From: Lachnospiraceae bacterium AC2031
Lineage (GTDB): Bacteria; Bacillota; Clostridia; Lachnospirales; Lachnospiraceae
DNA length: 64,000 nucleotides
Direction: 5' to 3'
Assembly: GCA_000687975.1 (NCBI GenBank)
Contig: JIAB01000001.1
Span: forward strand, 2,952,001-3,016,000
Shown piece by piece: positions 38,704 to 46,789 of the stretch (positions within the stretch are counted from its first letter, which is position 1; every line of letters starts with the position of its first letter). Position numbers and translations under genes: made by a program. The notes beneath the pieces were generated by a model that saw only the letters and a program-made list of their open reading frames with translations, was not told the DNA's origin and did not search any database.

Positions 38704-41478
38704 ATGAAAAATCTAAAAACTATTGTTACTTTAGGGCTGAGTGCAGCTTTTCTTTTGATGTTTGCACTCTTTGGTTATTGCGGCGAAGCTGCAAGGGTAG
38801 ACGCTGGCAATACTATTGATCTCACTTCGATTGCTACTGTTAATGTTACTAATCTTTATAATCGAAAGAATGAAGATGTACTTAGTAATGCTGAGTTCTA
38901 CTATGGCGATGAGTTTGATGTGGCTCTTAGCTGGCTGTTTCAGGATGATAATCCTCCAGATGATATAAAGTTTACATCTGAAGATGTTATCACTTATCAG
39001 TTACCTGCGGAGATAACATTTGATGACATTACTGAACCACAGCCAATTAATCAGGCAGGTCAGACTGTTGGTACATATACTGTTATAGGTAATGTTATAT
39101 CTTTACAGTATACATCTGATGAATATATTGCTGGTACATCAAGAGATAGTTCAATGAGTCTTGGCGGAAAAATAACCAGTATACCAGGTCAGGGTACACC
39201 TGATGGTCCTGTTGATATTACATTTCCAGGTGCGACAACTATTACTGTAAAGATGCACCCACTTCCAACATATTCTGATATGGAAATCCATAACAGACTC
39301 TATGATACAAACACATTTTCTGGTGATGGTAAGCTGCATTATTATAACAATGTAGATACTATTACATCCCACGGAGCAAATACCAATATTAAGTTTGATA
39401 TATATATGTATCCTGGTATGCAGTATGTTTCTGATCTTGGATTCTACAGTGATGCTGACTGTACTCAGAAGATCGACTATTCTCGTATTCAGATAGAGCA
39501 GGCTTCTGAGGGTGATAGAAATATTAGAGTTTCTATAACATCTATGAGTCCGGAAGAAACTATATATGTTAAATCTAAGGTTGGTGTTGATGTACAGCTT
39601 TACGACAAAGATAAGGTATTCACACGTGTTGACCAGATTGATACAGAAGGTGAATATGGTGCTTATGAGGGAAGAGTTCCTAATAGAGCACGTGTAATCA
39701 GTGATGAAACTATTGCTTATGATGCAACTCTCCTTGCATCAAGTGGTGGAAATAGACAGGGCTATAGAACTAGCTGGTCTGATGCTATAACTCTTAGAGG
39801 AGTTTGCAATAAGTGGGCTAATCCTAACGGAAATAAGGATGGTTACCTTAGCTGGGAGATAGCAGTATATAGTATTTATGGAGACGGCTTTGGCAGTGGT
39901 TATATTATAGATACTATTCCTGATAATACAGAATTTATTGATTCTAATATTAAGGTTGTTAAGAATACTGATAGCCAAGAACTTACAAATGCTATCTCTG
40001 TTGAAACTCTTACTAATGATCAGAATGGTCATAAGCGTGTAAAGCTTAACTTTAACACTAATCTTATGACTTATCTTTCAGAAAGTTCTGAGAATAGTGT
40101 AACGATCAGTTATTATACAAAGATTAAGAGTCAGAGCGGTGCATCTGAGAAATATTCTAATTCTGCAGAAATATATTATGATGGTAATTCCAGTATATCC
40201 TCTGCTGATTCAATGACTTATGATAAGCATGATCCACTGAATAAAGTTGGGGAATATATTTCTTCTAAAGCACCAAATGTTGATTATGGAATTATAGTTA
40301 ATCCAGATTCATTTGATCTTGATCCAACAAGTGATACACTTACTCTTGTTGATAAGATGGATAGCTCACTTGATCTTGTTTCTGGTTCTATATTGATCAA
40401 TAAAGTTAAAGCTACAGAAAATGATTATAAGTATAATCCAGCTACTCGTACACTGACATTTGAATTAGAAGATGGTAAGGCATATCTTATCGAGTATCTT
40501 GCTACAGTTAACCTTGTTCCAGGAGGAACTTTTGGTTCAGATGAAGGTGGTAATTCAGCAACACTTTCTGGCAAGTCAATGAAGGATATAGAAGTTAAGA
40601 GCAAGTTACAGGGTACAATACTTAGTAATAGTGCCAGTGCTTCATCAACGATTTTTGGAAAGATAAATGTTATCAAGCACGATTCTGCATCTGCAAGTGA
40701 TGTGCTTGCTGGAGCTAAGTTCTCACTTACTCCAATGAAGATTGATGCTAATAGAGTAGTTGAAGTAGATAGTAGTAATCAGGTACTAACAGGTACAACA
40801 CAGAGTAGTGGTGATGTATCATTTGCTGGTCTTATAAGAGGTAAGGTTTATATGCTTGTTGAGGAGGAGGCTCCTCAGGGCTATGAGAAGAATACAGAGC
40901 CTAGCTTCTATGTATTTAATACTACTGGTTTAAGTGAAGGAAATATTACTTACGAAGGAAAAGAATATAAGCTTAATCTTATATCTTCTTCTAAACTGAG
41001 TTATGATGTATATTATCCAAACACTAAGGAAGGAACTACACCAAACCAGGATACAAACCAGACAACTCCTACAACACCAAATCAGGATACAAACCAGACA
41101 ACACCAAATCAGGATACTAATACTACTGGTGGAAGTGCACAGGCTGTTCCAGAAGATAAGACTAACACAACTGAAGTTCCTACAATGGGCACAACTAATA
41201 CAGAGCAGCCTAAGCAGGAAACTGAGGTAAAGAAGGAAACTGAAGTTAAGAAGAATGATACACCTAAAAATGATTCTTCAACAACTAAAGAAGTAACTCC
41301 TAATAATGATACGACTCCAAACAATGATACAGCTCCTAATAAACCAGTAGAGCAGAAGACAAGTCTTATTAAGACTGGTGACAATTCGATGCTTTTTGGT
41401 GTTATTATCCTCATGCTTGTTTCGTTTGCAGCAATTGTAGGCCTGCTGGCGTACAAGCGTAAAAAAGGTAATGAATAA
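38704..41478 (+). CDS. Sortase-type surface protein with SpaA-like domain and Thr/Pro/Asn stalk
   Basis: 924 residues. Signal peptide (about 1-30), a large extracellular region with several beta-rich domains, and one like the isopeptide D2 pilin domain (about 515-610, YGIIVNPDSFDLDP to LATVNLVPGG). A SpaA-like domain follows at about 648-740 (INVIKHDSASASDVLAGAKFSLT to LVEEEAPQGYE, whose Lys/Glu can form an internal isopeptide bond). Next is a ~110-residue stalk of TPNQDTNQ-type repeats and KKETEV, then the wall-sorting signal LIKTGD, a hydrophobic helix and KRKK. The sorting motif is LIKTG rather than LPxTG. It is probably an adhesin or pilus-type subunit covalently fixed to the wall. No sortase is next to it. 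Confidence 0.88.
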   Translation: MKNLKTIVTLGLSAAFLLMFALFGYCGEAARVDAGNTIDLTSIATVNVTNLYNRKNEDVLSNAEFYYGDEFDVALSWLFQDDNPPDDIKFTSEDVITYQLPAEITFDDITEPQPINQAGQTVGTYTVIGNVISLQYTSDEYIAGTSRDSSMSLGGKITSIPGQGTPDGPVDITFPGATTITVKMHPLPTYSDMEIHNRLYDTNTFSGDGKLHYYNNVDTITSHGANTNIKFDIYMYPGMQYVSDLGFYSDADCTQKIDYSRIQIEQASEGDRNIRVSITSMSPEETIYVKSKVGVDVQLYDKDKVFTRVDQIDTEGEYGAYEGRVPNRARVISDETIAYDATLLASSGGNRQGYRTSWSDAITLRGVCNKWANPNGNKDGYLSWEIAVYSIYGDGFGSGYIIDTIPDNTEFIDSNIKVVKNTDSQELTNAISVETLTNDQNGHKRVKLNFNTNLMTYLSESSENSVTISYYTKIKSQSGASEKYSNSAEIYYDGNSSISSADSMTYDKHDPLNKVGEYISSKAPNVDYGIIVNPDSFDLDPTSDTLTLVDKMDSSLDLVSGSILINKVKATENDYKYNPATRTLTFELEDGKAYLIEYLATVNLVPGGTFGSDEGGNSATLSGKSMKDIEVKSKLQGTILSNSASASSTIFGKINVIKHDSASASDVLAGAKFSLTPMKIDANRVVEVDSSNQVLTGTTQSSGDVSFAGLIRGKVYMLVEEEAPQGYEKNTEPSFYVFNTTGLSEGNITYEGKEYKLNLISSSKLSYDVYYPNTKEGTTPNQDTNQTTPTTPNQDTNQTTPNQDTNTTGGSAQAVPEDKTNTTEVPTMGTTNTEQPKQETEVKKETEVKKNDTPKNDSSTTKEVTPNNDTTPNNDTAPNKPVEQKTSLIKTGDNSMLFGVIILMLVSFAAIVGLLAYKRKKGNE

Positions 41479-41591: not shown

Positions 41592-41644
41592 TTTACGACA
41601 AAAGATATACATTTTACGCCAAATATTTAGTTTTTTACAATTAT
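41592..41644. repeat. Three direct repeats spaced 21 nt, upstream of the small membrane protein operon
   Basis: TTTACGACAAA at 41592, TTTACGCCAAA at 41613 and TTTACAATTAT at 41634: starts are exactly 21 bases apart, two helical turns. They lie about 60 bases upstream of the -35 at 41703. The same unit recurs before the ABC genes at 42850 and 42871. Likely binding sites for one activator. Confidence 0.65.
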
Positions 41645-41702
41645 TGATGTAATATCAATTCATACAAAACGCAACCCACAGAATACAAAATGTAAAATAT
41701 AC

Positions 41703-41732
41703 TTGACAAAAGGTAAAAAAGGGTTGTATATT
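41703..41732 (+). promoter_or_regulatory. Promoter of the 41.8 kb operon
   Basis: A perfect -35 TTGACA at 41703-41708 and TATATT at 41727-41732, spacer 18. The 331-base gap 41479-41809 otherwise holds the terminator and the 21-nt repeats. Confidence 0.65.
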
Positions 41733-41809
41733 ATATTCAAACTTAAGCAAAGAATAAAACAAAGAATAAAAAAAATAATTAGTCATAGAAAGAAAGAGAG
41801 GATTGAAAA

Positions 41810-42037
41810 ATGAAGGTTATTAGTTTTAAGAGTTTTAAGGAAGTTCCAGGTTGTGTAAGAGTTATGTGGGCTATCGCATTAACACTTGCAGTTGCAGGCG
41901 GCGTTACACTTGCACTTGATATAGCAGGCATTGTTAGCATTAAGCTTTGTGTTTCTTTAGCACTTATCGTAGCTGCTCAGGTGATCAATGTATTTGGCAT
42001 TAGAAAGTATAAGGATGTTCTTTATAAAGAAGTATAA
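41810..42037 (+). CDS. Small two-helix membrane protein (75 aa)
   Basis: Unrecognised. A short amphipathic N-terminus (KVISFKSFKEVPGCVRV) is followed by two membrane helices (about 19-38 and 44-62) and a basic tail ending YKDVLYKEV. GAAAGAGAGGA precedes the ATG. First gene of a run that continues with another membrane protein, an XRE regulator and an ABC exporter. Its partner is probably the following membrane protein. Confidence 0.7.
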   Translation: MKVISFKSFKEVPGCVRVMWAIALTLAVAGGVTLALDIAGIVSIKLCVSLALIVAAQVINVFGIRKYKDVLYKEV

Positions 42038-42092
42038 GAGAGATAACATTTGATTTTTGTTTAGGATGAAAGGAAAGCATTGGTGGAATAAT

Positions 42093-42638
42093 ATGGGATT
42101 AGATATTATGTGGGTAACTGGTTTAATAGTGATTGTTGCAATATTTATAGTTTTATCTGCAATATTATATTCAAAATCGATACATCGAGATGGTAAGAAA
42201 GCGAAGTACGATGAAAGGCAGATGGCTGTAAGAGGTCGTGGATATATGTTTGCTTTTTATACTGCTGTGATCGTTTCAGTTATTCCTTGTTTTTTTACAG
42301 ATGAGATGAAACTGTTTTTTGGAGATTTGATTTATTTCATTCCGCTTATAGTAGGTATGATGGTTCATACATTTTACTGCGTATGGAATGATGCCTATAT
42401 TGAGTTAAATCTTGATTCAAAAAGATGGATGACAAGCATTTCATGTGTTGGTTTAGCAAATCTGATGATTGGTATTGGTAACTGCTCTAAAGGATTATTA
42501 ATTGATGGTGAAATAAATTCAGGAATTCTTAATCTTATTGTTGGAATTTTTGCATTTATTGTTCTGATAGAGATCCGTGTTAAGAATAATCTTAATAAGA
42601 AGAAGGAGGCGGAAGAAGATGAAGAATTTGAAGCTTAA
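42093..42638 (+). CDS. Four-to-five-helix membrane protein with YDERQ motif (paired with XRE regulator)
   Basis: 181 residues from ATG 42093, preferred because GGTGG lies six bases upstream; ATG 42066 and TTG 42057 are in-frame alternatives. The N-terminal helix is followed by a basic loop with AKYDERQMAVRGRGYMFAFY, a motif I associate with small integral membrane proteins encoded next to XRE regulators. Three or four more helices follow, then a Lys/Glu-rich tail. The last 20 bases overlap the regulator gene, so translation is coupled. A signal-transducing anti-regulator is possible but not shown. Confidence 0.74.
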   Translation: MGLDIMWVTGLIVIVAIFIVLSAILYSKSIHRDGKKAKYDERQMAVRGRGYMFAFYTAVIVSVIPCFFTDEMKLFFGDLIYFIPLIVGMMVHTFYCVWNDAYIELNLDSKRWMTSISCVGLANLMIGIGNCSKGLLIDGEINSGILNLIVGIFAFIVLIEIRVKNNLNKKKEAEEDEEFEA

Positions 42639-42816
42639 AGCCGCCCGAGCTGGAAAGGATATGTCGCAGGCTGATCTTGCTGAGGCAGTTGGTGTGTCGA
42701 GACAGACTATTAACTCCATTGAAAAGGGAGATTATAACCCAACTATAAAGCTATGTCTTTCTATATGTAAGACCCTGGGAAAGACATTGGATGAGATATT
42801 TTGGGAGGAAGAGTGA
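42619..42816 (+). CDS. Small XRE-family HTH regulator (65 aa)
   Basis: 65 residues, the YgzD/YozG size class made of one Cro/CI helix-turn-helix: LKLKAARAGKDMSQADLAEAVGVSRQTINSIEKG. The recognition helix is VSRQTINSIEKG. C-terminal DEIFWEEE closes the fold. AGGAGG ten bases upstream of ATG 42619 sets the start. It overlaps the preceding membrane protein gene and probably regulates this operon or the ABC genes behind it. Confidence 0.9.
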   Translation: MKNLKLKAARAGKDMSQADLAEAVGVSRQTINSIEKGDYNPTIKLCLSICKTLGKTLDEIFWEEE

Positions 42817-42843
42817 TGTGTCATGTGTGTTTCGCATGACACA
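42817..42843 (+). other. Hairpin after the XRE gene
   Basis: TGTGTCATG and CATGACACA form a perfect 9-bp stem with a 9-base loop and no T-run. It could be a weak terminator or processing site between the regulator and ABC genes. Confidence 0.5.
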
Positions 42844-42849
42844 TTACCA

Positions 42850-42881
42850 TTTACAACAGATATATGACTGTTTACGACAAA
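42850..42881. repeat. Two direct repeats spaced 21 nt upstream of the ABC exporter genes
   Basis: TTTACAACAGA at 42850 and TTTACGACAAA at 42871. Same unit and same 21-base period as at 41592-41644. Confidence 0.65.
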
Positions 42882-42987
42882 AGAAATATATTTGCTGAAC
42901 AATGAATTAATATACGTTAATGAAGATGGTGGAAAAGTGTGCGCTATCTATGCTTAGTACACGGCCACATTAAGGAGGATGAAAGTA

Positions 42988-44013
42988 ATGGCACTTGTAG
43001 TTAAGGATCTTTACAAGAAGTATGGCGAGAAGATTGTAGTTGATAATATCAGCTTTGAGATGCCAAAGCCTGGCGTTTATGCGCTGCTTGGTACAAATGG
43101 AGCTGGTAAGACTACTTCTATAAGAATGATACTTGGTATGCTTGATAAAGATGGTGGAGAGGTTACCTGGGACGGAAAGCCTCTTAACTTTGATACATGT
43201 AATATAGGTTATCTGGCTGAGGAACGTGGTCTTTATCCAAAGTATACACTGATCGATCAGCTCAGATACTTCGGTGAGCTTCGTGGAGTCGATCGTAAGA
43301 CTGTTGATGAGAGAATAAAATACTGGGCTGAGAGACTTAAGGTTGAAGAGTATATATATCCTGAGAAGGCTGCTGAACTACTTGAGAAGCAGGAAAAAGA
43401 AGGCAGAGTACGTTATGATGAGAATGGAAATGTTATCGAAGAGAAGACGGAGGCTAAGAAGACTAGACGTAGAAAGCCTAAGCTTCAGAGTCCTGATCAG
43501 CTGTCAAAGGGTAATCAGCAGAAGATTCAGTTCCTGATTGCTATGATATCTGAGCCAGAGCTTCTTGTTTTGGACGAGCCATTTTCAGGTCTTGATCCTG
43601 TAAATACAGATATTCTTAAAGAGGTTGTAAGAGAGCAGATTGCAGCAGGTAAGTACATCATCATGTCCAGCCACCAGATGGAGGTTGTTGAGGAGTTCTG
43701 TACTGATATTACAATCCTTCATAGATCTAAGGCTGTTGTATCTGGAAATCTAAATGAAATTAAAAAGGCTAGAGGTCGAGTTAACCTTAATCTTAAGGTT
43801 GAACAGGACATTACTTCTTATATAGAAGCTGCAGGTGTAGAACTCATTTCCGAAAAAGAATTTGAGTATACTCTGAAAGTAACAGGCGATGAGCAGGCAA
43901 ACAAGCTGCTTAGCAGTCTGATTGCTGCAGGTATTCCCATTGTAAAGTTTGATCTTAGTGAGATGTCACTTCATGAGATCTTTGTAAATGCAGTAGGAGA
44001 AAACGCAGAGTAG
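42988..44013 (+). CDS. ABC transporter ATP-binding protein (NatA-like)
   Basis: 341 residues from ATG 42988, nine bases after AAGGAGG; ATG 42979 abuts that site and is less likely. Walker A is GTNGAGKTT, signature LSKGNQQKI, Walker B LLVLDEPFSGLDP, with a C-terminal DUF4162-type extension. Between the helical domain and the signature lies an inserted charged stretch of about 40 residues (EKQEKEGRVRYDENGN, then KTEAKKTRRRKPK). Most NatA-like proteins have only a few residues there. Energises export through the two permeases that follow. The natural cargo is unknown; NatAB in Bacillus moves Na+. Confidence 0.92.
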   Translation: MALVVKDLYKKYGEKIVVDNISFEMPKPGVYALLGTNGAGKTTSIRMILGMLDKDGGEVTWDGKPLNFDTCNIGYLAEERGLYPKYTLIDQLRYFGELRGVDRKTVDERIKYWAERLKVEEYIYPEKAAELLEKQEKEGRVRYDENGNVIEEKTEAKKTRRRKPKLQSPDQLSKGNQQKIQFLIAMISEPELLVLDEPFSGLDPVNTDILKEVVREQIAAGKYIIMSSHQMEVVEEFCTDITILHRSKAVVSGNLNEIKKARGRVNLNLKVEQDITSYIEAAGVELISEKEFEYTLKVTGDEQANKLLSSLIAAGIPIVKFDLSEMSLHEIFVNAVGENAE

Positions 44014-44023
44014 AAAGGGAAAT

Positions 44024-45415
44024 GTGATGAATAAGAGAGAAAATATATATAGCCTGGAAGGCTTTGGAAAGGTCTTTCGATTCACGGTTAGTCAGACCTT
44101 TAAGAATAAAGGATATCTAGTCGCATTTGTTATGTTTGTACTTGTGATGACATTTATGGGTCCTATTCAGTATCTGAGTCAGCATACTAGTCAAAGTGCT
44201 GCAGAAGACAGTTTATCATATGATCCTGCTAAGGTTGAGGTAGATAAAATAAGCATCTATAACGTAACTACTGTTGGTCTTCAGGTTGATGATCTGACTG
44301 ATCTTTACATGACAGATGAAGAGGCTAAGGAAGAAGAGAATAAAGCAGGCGTCTCAAAGGATAAGGTGGTAGTTTTAGAGCCGGTTGAAGAAATCGATTA
44401 TGAAAATAAGCTTGCGGATTCTCTTGGAAATAAGGATGTAATAGTCTTTATCAAAGGTGCTGAAACTGGTTATCAGATCAGCGGTGTTATATCAAATGAC
44501 AGTAAGGTTGAGGTTGAGGATGTTGATGGTATAACTGAAACTGTAAAAGATATATATGAAGTAAAAAGACTTGAGAATAGTGATGTAAGTTCAGAGGATG
44601 TTCAGATGATATTCTCGGGAGTTGACACAAACTCTGTAATAGAAGAGTCCAACTATGTGGCTGAAGAAAACAAGACAGTATCTAACATTAACTACATGTT
44701 CTATATGCTTGGTTTATCAATGATCATTTTCCTTGTAGTTTCAATGACGAATTCATACATCATTACTTCTGTAACAGAAGAGAAGCAGTCAAAACTGGTT
44801 GAGTCTATTCTTGTCAGTGTTAGACCTATGGCACTTCTTATGGGCAAGGTCTGTGGAATGATGTCATATGTTATATTACTTCTTGGTTGTGGCGTTATTG
44901 GATCAAATATATCCAATTTGGTAATGAAAAATGTATTTGAGATAAGTGAGAGTCAGTTTAACAACAGTGGTTTCAACTTCTCTATCTTCAAAGATTTTGG
45001 TGTAATTGGTTTTGTATGCCTGCTTTTGTCTGTTGTATTGGCATTTATTCTTTTTGGAACTATTGCAGGACTTTTTGGAAGTACATGTAATAAGACAGAG
45101 GATATTCAGGATGCAACAGGAAATGTAATGATGATCGCTATGGTCAGCTATTTCGCTGCAATTGGAGTCGGAGCATTTGATAAAGATATCGTTAATGTTA
45201 TAGCAGCTCTGCTTCCTCCATTTTCATTCTTCACAGCTCCTGTTATCTATGTAACTGGTCGTATTGGAATAGCAGTGCTGATAGTATCTTATATAATTCA
45301 GATACTTGTGATTATAGGTGTTATGAGACTTTCTGCTAAGAGCTACAGAAATCTTATTCTCAGTGATTCCACAACACCAAAGCTTAAGACTATCTTTAAG
45401 TCGGCAAAAATGTAG
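44024..45415 (+). CDS. ABC-2 type permease (NatB-like), first copy
   Basis: 463 residues. One N-terminal helix (about 29-48), a ~170-residue acidic extracytoplasmic domain, then about five helices with SNSYIITSVTEEKQSKLVESILVSVRP replaced here by TNSYIITSVTEEKQSK, the cytoplasmic coupling segment typical of ABC2_membrane_3. It pairs with the ATPase ten bases upstream and with the second permease 12 bases downstream, likely as a heterodimer. Confidence 0.9.
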   Translation: MMNKRENIYSLEGFGKVFRFTVSQTFKNKGYLVAFVMFVLVMTFMGPIQYLSQHTSQSAAEDSLSYDPAKVEVDKISIYNVTTVGLQVDDLTDLYMTDEEAKEEENKAGVSKDKVVVLEPVEEIDYENKLADSLGNKDVIVFIKGAETGYQISGVISNDSKVEVEDVDGITETVKDIYEVKRLENSDVSSEDVQMIFSGVDTNSVIEESNYVAEENKTVSNINYMFYMLGLSMIIFLVVSMTNSYIITSVTEEKQSKLVESILVSVRPMALLMGKVCGMMSYVILLLGCGVIGSNISNLVMKNVFEISESQFNNSGFNFSIFKDFGVIGFVCLLLSVVLAFILFGTIAGLFGSTCNKTEDIQDATGNVMMIAMVSYFAAIGVGAFDKDIVNVIAALLPPFSFFTAPVIYVTGRIGIAVLIVSYIIQILVIIGVMRLSAKSYRNLILSDSTTPKLKTIFKSAKM

Positions 45416-45427
45416 GAGGTAGGAAAA

Positions 45428-46789
45428 ATGTTTAAGAATTTTGATAAAGTATTTAAGTTCACATTTAGAAATCAGACCTCCACAAAGGGATATAAGAGAG
45501 GAACATTTCTAACAGCATTTATTCTCTTCATTATTCCAGTTGCAATCTTTTCAATTGTTGGATATGTTCTGAAGAATGATGATGATGAATTAAAGAGTTG
45601 CGGTGCTGAGAGGGTTTATGTAGTTGACCCTGAAGCTCCAAATGCAGATTTTAATATATTAAATGTAACAGGTGTTGAAGGTTATACAGATATTCAGTAT
45701 TCAAATGCTGAAACAGTGGATGAGGCTCTTGAAACCATCGAATCAAGAGGTGAGAAAAAATCCATAGTCCTTCAGATTAAGAAGGAAGACGGTCGACTTC
45801 AGTCAAGAATTATCCTTCCAGATGCATGTGAACTGGAAAAAGATGATGTTAAGAACTACAACGACTTTATAGATGAGAGTGGAAATGTATTCGCACTTAT
45901 TGCATCAGGCATTGATATGGGCGATATGACTGAGATGATGAAGCAGACAGATTACTCTGTTTATGATGCTGATGGGTTTAAGGATGGAACAGATCTTTAT
46001 ACAGATGCTGGCAAGTTAAATGAACAGCAGAATGCAAAGATACTTCCAGTCTTCAATATGATCCTTACATATATCTGTGTAATATTTATCTATATGATAA
46101 TTATCATGTATGGTAACAGCATCCTTCAGAATATTGTTCTTGAAAAGAGTTCTAAACTCATGGATACTATGCTGATATCTGTATCACCACAGGCACTTGT
46201 ATTTGGAAAAATGCTTGCGGTTTTAACATCAGGCATCCTGCAGCTTCTTGTATGGATTGCAGGACTTGTAGGTGGCGTTGTAGCAGGTCTGAAGATTTTT
46301 GGAACAATGCTTAGTGGAGCTGATACAGTTGTGATGACATTTGTTAAGAGCTTCGCAGATTTAGGACTATTTAAACCGGTAAATGTTATCGTAGGCATAC
46401 TTGCTCTAATCTTCGGAATCATAATGTATGCATCTCTTTCAGCTGTTGCAGGAGCAATATCTGGTACGAGAGAAGAGGCTGCTAGTAATCAGAGTTTATT
46501 TATAATGTTACTTCTGTTCAGCTTTTATGCAATTCTCTTCAAGGGAATGAATACAACAAACCCTGCTTTATGGTTATACTTGGTACCTTTTACTTCTGCA
46601 ATGGTACTTCCATCGGGAATTTGCTCAGGAATTATCTCCACAGGAGTTGCTGCTGCCGGACTTGGAATTCTGGTAGTGTGCAGCTTAGGATTAATAATCC
46701 TGGCAGGTAAGCTATATAAGATGATGTCGCTCTATAAGGGCAACAAAGTTAGTTTAGGTAAGGCCATCAAGATGCTTGCTGGCAAGTAA
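45428..46789 (+). CDS. ABC-2 type permease (NatB-like), second copy
   Basis: 453 residues, same layout as the preceding permease: N-terminal helix at about 26-46, an extracytoplasmic domain, then about six helices with VLEKSSKLMDTMLISVSPQALVFGK as the coupling segment. Sequence identity to the first copy is low outside that segment, so it is a diverged partner, not a recent duplication. GGAGG precedes the ATG. It ends the operon before a strong terminator. Confidence 0.9.
   Translation: MFKNFDKVFKFTFRNQTSTKGYKRGTFLTAFILFIIPVAIFSIVGYVLKNDDDELKSCGAERVYVVDPEAPNADFNILNVTGVEGYTDIQYSNAETVDEALETIESRGEKKSIVLQIKKEDGRLQSRIILPDACELEKDDVKNYNDFIDESGNVFALIASGIDMGDMTEMMKQTDYSVYDADGFKDGTDLYTDAGKLNEQQNAKILPVFNMILTYICVIFIYMIIIMYGNSILQNIVLEKSSKLMDTMLISVSPQALVFGKMLAVLTSGILQLLVWIAGLVGGVVAGLKIFGTMLSGADTVVMTFVKSFADLGLFKPVNVIVGILALIFGIIMYASLSAVAGAISGTREEAASNQSLFIMLLLFSFYAILFKGMNTTNPALWLYLVPFTSAMVLPSGICSGIISTGVAAAGLGILVVCSLGLIILAGKLYKMMSLYKGNKVSLGKAIKMLAGK

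Follow-up and report, generated by a model that had tools for sequence, protein, structure and literature searches.

The question raised by this locus is which regulator reads the direct repeats standing in front of its two transcription units, and how far the control exerted through these repeats extends. The window, by which is meant the whole stretch of 64,000 nucleotides that was analysed, corresponds to positions 2952001-3016000 of the single-contig genome of Lachnospiraceae bacterium AC2031 (3,191,482 bases; genome code G000). It contains five repeat units, all exactly 21 bases apart within their own block. A preliminary description of this DNA had given these units, their positions and their spacing exactly; four of them are sound, and the unit at 41634 carries 2 mismatches to the 9-mer consensus and is thus weak or a chance match. 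Arrays of three units do exist in relatives (loci L078 and L201). The features of the locus are as follows.

41592..41621, + strand: LytTR-type box 1, TTTACGACA-N12-TTTACGCCA (units 41592 and 41613), 1 mismatch to the degenerate pattern
41634..41642, + strand: weak third unit TTTACAATT
41650..41655, + strand: TAATAT, -10-like hexamer 28 bp 3' of box 1, a predicted activator-dependent promoter (from the sequence and the regulon-wide 28-29 bp offset)
41690..41708, + strand: conserved operator ATGTAAAATATACTTGACA, imperfectly palindromic and covering the -35; XRE is predicted to regulate itself here
41703..41732, + strand: second promoter of unit 1, strong-looking, TTGACA-N18-TATATT
41810..42037, + strand: 75-aa small predicted membrane protein (membrane nature judged by eye; no Pfam match)
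42066..42638, + strand: 190-aa predicted membrane protein with KYDERQ-RGRGYM motif, XRE partner
42619..42816, + strand: 65-aa XRE/HTH_3 regulator (HTH_3 E 6.6e-18)
42850..42879, + strand: LytTR-type box 2, TTTACAACA-N12-TTTACGACA (units 42850 and 42871)
42908..42913, + strand: TAATAT, -10-like hexamer 28 bp 3' of box 2
42988..44013, + strand: ABC exporter ATPase (ABC_tran + DrrA1-3_C, Pfam)
44024..45415, + strand: ABC-2 permease 1 (ABC2_membrane_3, Pfam)
45428..46789, + strand: ABC-2 permease 2 (ABC2_membrane_3, Pfam)

As judged from the genes of the window, both repeat blocks head transcription units of one locus, as had been described. Box 1 precedes the 75-aa protein, the 190-aa membrane protein and the XRE gene (unit 1), and box 2 lies between the XRE gene and the ABC ATPase with its two ABC2_membrane_3 permeases. 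The combination of such an ATPase with ABC2_membrane_3 permeases is that of a NatA/DrrA-type exporter. None of the best 25 NCBIfam models for the ATPase reached its own cut-off, the permeases had no NCBIfam match, and the PDB search gave relatives of a general kind, ABC and receiver proteins, with no match for permease 2.

The likeness of the blocks to two-turn direct repeats of LytTR type was borne out by the period of 21 bp, the spacer of 12 bp and the offset of the -10 hexamer. According to PMC2714321 and PMC6193735, LytTR-activated promoters carry 9-bp repeats with a 12-bp spacer just 5' of the -35. The boxes studied here likewise consist of two direct repeats of about 9 bp with the same spacer and period. 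In 52 distinct sites having enough flank, the half-site extends to CCnTTYACRACA, and the C at -3, which is outside the search pattern, is present in 79% of the first and 88% of the second repeats. Measured from the second repeat, a -10-like hexamer lies at an offset of 29 bp in 26 of these sites and of 28 bp in 3; every other offset occurs in at most two sites. The position just 5' of a (predicted) promoter is thus fixed in 29 of the 52.

It could be argued that the repeats are a matter of chance or an unrelated AT-rich repeat, and some of the counts agree with this. The 11-mer TTTACGMCAAA alone is not enriched genome-wide: it has 8 matches, one of them inside a coding ORF at window position 39599, and the reversed control has 7. 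A pair allowed up to 3 mismatches is also at background (17 against 19 for the control). The paired patterns behave differently. TTTACGMCAAA-N10-TTTAC, which the preliminary description had put forward for a genome-wide search, matches twice in the window and never in 100 dinucleotide shuffles, and the exact degenerate pair TTYRCRACA-N12-TTYACRACA is found 7 times in the genome and 0 times as the reversed pattern. Across 61 genomes of the genus the exact pair gives 55 matches against 0 for its reverse, with at least one in 23 of the genomes. Regions of at most 1200 bp in front of the exporter gene were also scored (57 matches, of which 50 were read and 6 of these had no gene start, leaving 44); a pair score of at least 20 was reached in 20 of the 44 regions and in none of 440 dinucleotide shuffles. 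When spacings of 12-35 were scanned there, this score was reached only at 21 (20 regions) and at 12 (one region); the scoring matrix was built from the 21-bp pairs of G000 and is biased to the half-site, not to the spacing. The 55-to-0 count, the fixed -10 offset and the conservation at orthologous promoters already contradict a chance origin, and its probability is negligible.

The exporter itself is a core gene of the genus, with a close homologue in 56 of 61 genomes and no match at the threshold in the other 5. A box scoring at least 15 sits 94-208 bp before the ATPase or, in eight genomes, 462-1026 bp before it. Five of these eight were inspected (G011, G020, G025, G068 and G071), and a small TM gene or a membrane-protein/XRE pair lies between box and ATPase in all five. 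The box tracks the promoter of the exporter unit, standing before the ATPase or before an upstream gene of the same unit. Both arrangements are seen in the window, since the locus there is divided into two units. As to synteny, the repeats are kept at orthologous loci in part of the genus only, and there they move with the promoter of the unit.

Unit 1 has a second layer of control of its own. The motif ATGTAAWATATASTTGACA (window region 41685-41732) precedes 22 of 29 XRE loci across the genus with no more than one mismatch, and two more loci, of other families (L045 and L043), with 2-3 mismatches; in the remaining 5 the XRE gene lies downstream of an exporter permease. In 145 mononucleotide shuffles the motif was never seen with two or fewer mismatches and only once with three. 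A homologue of the 190-aa membrane protein adjoins the XRE gene in 27 of the 29 loci, a homologue of the 75-aa protein in 3, and in 14 a close exporter gene is no more than about 1.5 kb away, a count that excludes two other loci whose ATPase matches are weak. Since unit 1 carries an independent XRE-type operator over its -35, the exporter locus would be under two predicted controls. The XRE gene is located between the two blocks, and one could suppose that its protein binds the 21-bp repeats and controls both units. This was dropped as very improbable: the conserved operator of the XRE operon is unlike the repeats, XRE orthologues occur in genomes having no exact sites (G002, G010, G016 and G027, for example), and boxes of the same kind stand before many other genes. 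The simplest reading is that the XRE protein, associated with the exporter, would be autoregulated with its membrane partner and would not be the reader of the 21-bp repeats. To our knowledge no mechanism has been assigned to small XRE/membrane-protein pairs, which recur in the genus, and the operator offers a handle on them.

The sites are not private to this locus. The preliminary description had tied the repeats to it, and both of its units do carry them, but they define a wider regulon. Box 1 is an eighth site in the genome, with its one mismatch, next to seven exact sites, which are located as follows.

Before the exporter
Before an 88-aa small TM protein with a 342-aa protein
Before another small membrane protein
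Before an erythromycin-esterase homologue (Pfam Erythro_esteras E 3.8e-41)
Before an HlyD-type adaptor
Before a 217-aa protein with no Pfam match
581 bp before a 241-aa protein

Boxes of the relatives precede the same kinds of genes and, in addition, CAAX proteases, an FtsX-like permease and an OmpR-type regulator with its kinase (the last two named by eye).

Outside the genus the boxes are associated with LytTR genes. The strict pattern CCNTTYACRACA-N9-CCNTTYACRACA was searched in 84,980 species genomes and gave 58 stretches; 6 from the same genus (by contig and site matching) and 14 tandem 21-bp arrays (from Spirochaetaceae/Treponema MAGs and Latescibacterota) were set aside, leaving 38 loci of up to 8 kb each, which include near-copies (Maribacter, Flavobacterium). 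A LytTR gene is present in 13 of the 38 against about 0.75 expected, an expectation taken from the density in 15 genus genomes, which may differ in other phyla. In L326, from Paenibacillus bovis DE0126, the box is flanked on one side by a NatA/NatB-type ABC locus, recognised by eye, whose ATPase is divided between two ORFs, and on the other by a LytTR response regulator (Pfam) that is divergently oriented and followed by a kinase-like ORF (by eye). The box of Streptococcus ratti stands before a small ORF that resembles, in our reading, a double-glycine bacteriocin precursor, in line with the ComE class. Judged by geometry, promoter position and neighbouring genes, the repeat blocks are predicted LytTR-type activator boxes that define a small regulon. 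Separately, many 21-bp tandem arrays of GTATACCTTTTACGACAAAAG in a Spirochaetaceae MAG (L340, L342, L350-L352, L354, L355, L358, L365, L367, L374 and L376) mimic the box and are probably unrelated to it.

No LytTR gene lies within the 64-kb window, as had been noted. The genome holds nine of them elsewhere, seven short ones of the LRS kind and two response regulators, among which is a regulator with features that match the boxes. This candidate (G000:C1:2371115-2371822) has Response_reg and LytTR domains by Pfam and is followed by a 489-aa GHKL kinase (HATPase_c_5); starting at 2371115, it lies about 0.62 Mb from the exporter at 2994988. It was found in 30 of 61 genomes, and identity drops from 59% to 37% between these proteins and the next homologues. 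At the recognition stretch it reads FFRVHRGY, and it is the only one of the nine LytTR proteins with HR at this place, the seven short ones reading SK, QK or SR. HR was present in 11 of 11 candidate orthologues checked, in 11 of 13 out-of-genus regulators from box loci (three of them near-identical) and in 6 of 27 other regulators of the genus, a sample collected for other reasons. ComE of S. mutans reads CHRSFIVN at this stretch, as translated from a primer given in PMC12323615.

Presence of the candidate goes with presence of the sites. It was found in 20 of 23 genomes with sites and in 10 of 38 others, and among genomes at least 90% complete in all 11 with sites and in 7 of 22 others (two genomes, G062 and G028, entered the co-occurrence counts and the exporter-tree test through other loci, and G029 was left out of the latter). 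The site genomes that do not have it are G033, G020 and G025 (72-87% complete). An exporter box scoring at least 15 is present and the candidate missing in G020, G025, G021 (73% complete) and G072 (100% complete); the candidate is present and the exporter box missing in G022, G023, G076, G083 and G029, for the last two of which 830 and 314 bp were read, respectively. On the exporter tree the joint occurrences fall in clusters; a comparison of independent pairs that differ in the candidate showed the box changing with it in 1.7 of 6 and against it in none, which is not significant at this low power. In two relatives the box stands at the locus of the regulator itself, in the order box (exact in G005, one mismatch in G023), CAAX protease, candidate regulator and a further ORF in the place of the kinase. 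This arrangement suggests that the candidate could be regulating its own operon in these strains; the locus of the candidate in G000 has no box. Taken together, the sequence evidence makes this AgrA/NatR-like response regulator with its GHKL kinase most likely the best candidate for reading the boxes. As an observation apart, the exporter ATPase gene of G072 (G072:C73:1610-2632), a genome that has no candidate regulator, contains an in-frame TAG, and may be a pseudogene or lie on a stray contig.

The main rival is a short LytTR protein of the L016 type, which with its DUF3021 membrane partner could form an LRS that holds the regulon off until the partner senses a signal. For one short LytTR of G000, Pfam showed a LytTR gene followed by a DUF3021 gene. 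The L016 type associates with the sites as well as the candidate does (sites in 14 of 16 genomes having it against 9 of 45 lacking it) and does better on the exporter boxes: among genomes at least 90% complete, a box scoring at least 20 was found in 10 of 10 with the L016 type and 3 of 19 without, compared to 12 of 18 and 1 of 11 for the candidate. In three genomes it shares a contig with the exporter box and lies 7-13 kb upstream, and in G000 three TTTACGACA-like units with a 22-bp period stand about 520-570 bp upstream of it. The exporter-box counts lend the L016 type slight additional weight and take a little from the candidate. On the other hand, the region upstream of the L016 type bears another 21-bp repeat, CATCTTACCG..CCACTTACCG, its second half, CCACTTACCG, being recognised by eye in 10 of the 12 upstream stretches inspected, among them that of G000. 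An LRS is a LytTR protein without receiver that, together with a membrane protein, is autoregulated by the box of its targets, and here the promoter has a different repeat. The recognition stretch reads SK, not HR, and G068 (99% complete, 2 sites) has no L016-type LytTR at all. On account of the differing upstream repeat and of G068 this explanation was demoted, and we consider it unlikely.

The repeat CATCTTACCG..CCACTTACCG, about 300-900 bp (by eye) upstream of the L016-type genes (L163-L177), looks like a classic LRS-type box for the LytTR-DUF3021 pair. The three TTTACGACA-like units (L016:781-970) are accompanied by a -10-like TATACA and, 60-100 bp further on, by a terminator-like hairpin, and may belong to a short RNA. 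The L013-type LytTR was rejected as reader of the boxes; its association is weaker (13 of 20 genomes with sites), and CATCTTAC-type repeats with a 20-bp period stand before the G000 and G071 genes. The repeats seen upstream of both L016-type and L013-type genes are of the CTTAC type.

Several paralogous LytTR regulators could also be sharing the box, which would bring mixed inputs to the regulon. In G062 and G026 (L201 and L202) the box stands next to another response regulator of the LytTR class, accompanied by a large membrane kinase (by eye), and some site genomes do not have the main candidate; against this, HR is confined to that one protein among the nine of G000. Such sharing appears a little less probable still than control by the L016 type. 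As the reader in G000 the L201/L202 regulator was not retained, being box-adjacent in two genomes and having no close counterpart in either response regulator of G000. Its boxes, at L201:6058-6108 and L202:1940-1969, stand between divergent genes beside the kinase and the LytTR response regulator.

The preferred explanation, to which we assign a probability of roughly two in three, is that the LytTR boxes are read by a regulator of the AgrA/NatR/ComE kind that switches on both units of the locus together with remote genes. The GHKL kinase would sense a signal and phosphorylate the LytTR regulator. A dimer of the regulator would then bind the two CCnTTYACRACA half-sites, which lie 21 bp apart on one face of the DNA with the -10 a further 28-29 bp on and a poor -35, and would recruit RNA polymerase. 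Activation could in this way reach both units of the locus together, the exporter unit and the one with the small TM protein, membrane protein and XRE gene, along with several remote genes for envelope or export functions. The XRE protein probably represses itself through the operator over the -35 of the second promoter and so could be setting the basal level of unit 1, with the membrane protein as its likely sensor. From the gene content and from natAB of Bacillus subtilis, which PMC3498285 groups with cell envelope stress systems, it is plausible that the exporter removes a toxic compound or relieves envelope stress.

The geometry of the box, the class of the regulator and the class of the exporter are already known kinds. 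NatR is a LytTR protein, and its box is ATTCACGACAT; the consensus for ComE is TCBTAAAYSGT. NatK-NatR with natAB of B. subtilis, a LytTR-kinase pair with an ABC exporter, is among the closest known systems (a title on it is cited in PMC3498285). Like NatR, the candidate joins a receiver to a LytTR domain, is encoded with a GHKL-type kinase and is proposed to act over a NatA/NatB-type exporter, and L326 pairs the box with a NatAB-type locus and a divergent LytTR gene. It differs in that the kinase and regulator are not linked to the natAB-type genes, the exporter has two permeases and many other genes are also preceded by the box. With the class of AgrA, PlnC/PlnD and ComE the system shares direct repeats 5' of the promoter and a GHKL-type kinase, and with ComE the HR stretch; it departs from that class in its half-site CCnTTYACRACA and in its targets, which are exporters, small TM proteins and enzymes. 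For PlnC/PlnD, PMC2714321 and PMC4227749 give 9-bp direct repeats with a 12-bp spacer upstream of the promoter. No peptide precursor gene was noticed in passing beside the candidate. According to PMC6193735, LRS, in which a LytTR protein is paired with a membrane inhibitor, has the same box geometry, and two types are linked to ABC transporters. The LRS-type promoters with a visible repeat in the present genomes carry the CTTAC type, in contrast to the boxes of the regulon, and the candidate is a two-component regulator. Among the titles searched in the literature, none was recognised as describing the box in Lachnospiraceae, and neither the regulon with its likely regulator in the genus nor the XRE operator was found.

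For a signalling system of gut Lachnospiraceae the analysis thus provides a DNA motif, a list of targets and a candidate regulator, and it ties a core exporter of the genus to a predicted LytTR switch. A further proposal is offered tentatively, as possible and somewhat doubtful in its full extent. An as yet unnamed LytTR two-component regulon of rumen-type Lachnospiraceae might unite the core ABC exporter, small TM proteins, CAAX proteases, the HlyD-type adaptor and the erythromycin-esterase homologue in one envelope or antimicrobial response. The separate pair of XRE and DERQ-type membrane protein would be its second control, possibly a non-LytTR counterpart of the regulator/membrane-inhibitor design of LRS.

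A large surface protein is encoded in the same window at 38704-41478. It has a below-cut-off match to SpaH/EbpB-type pilins and a C-terminal LIKTGD sorting-like motif, and one TTTACGACAAA lies inside its coding sequence.
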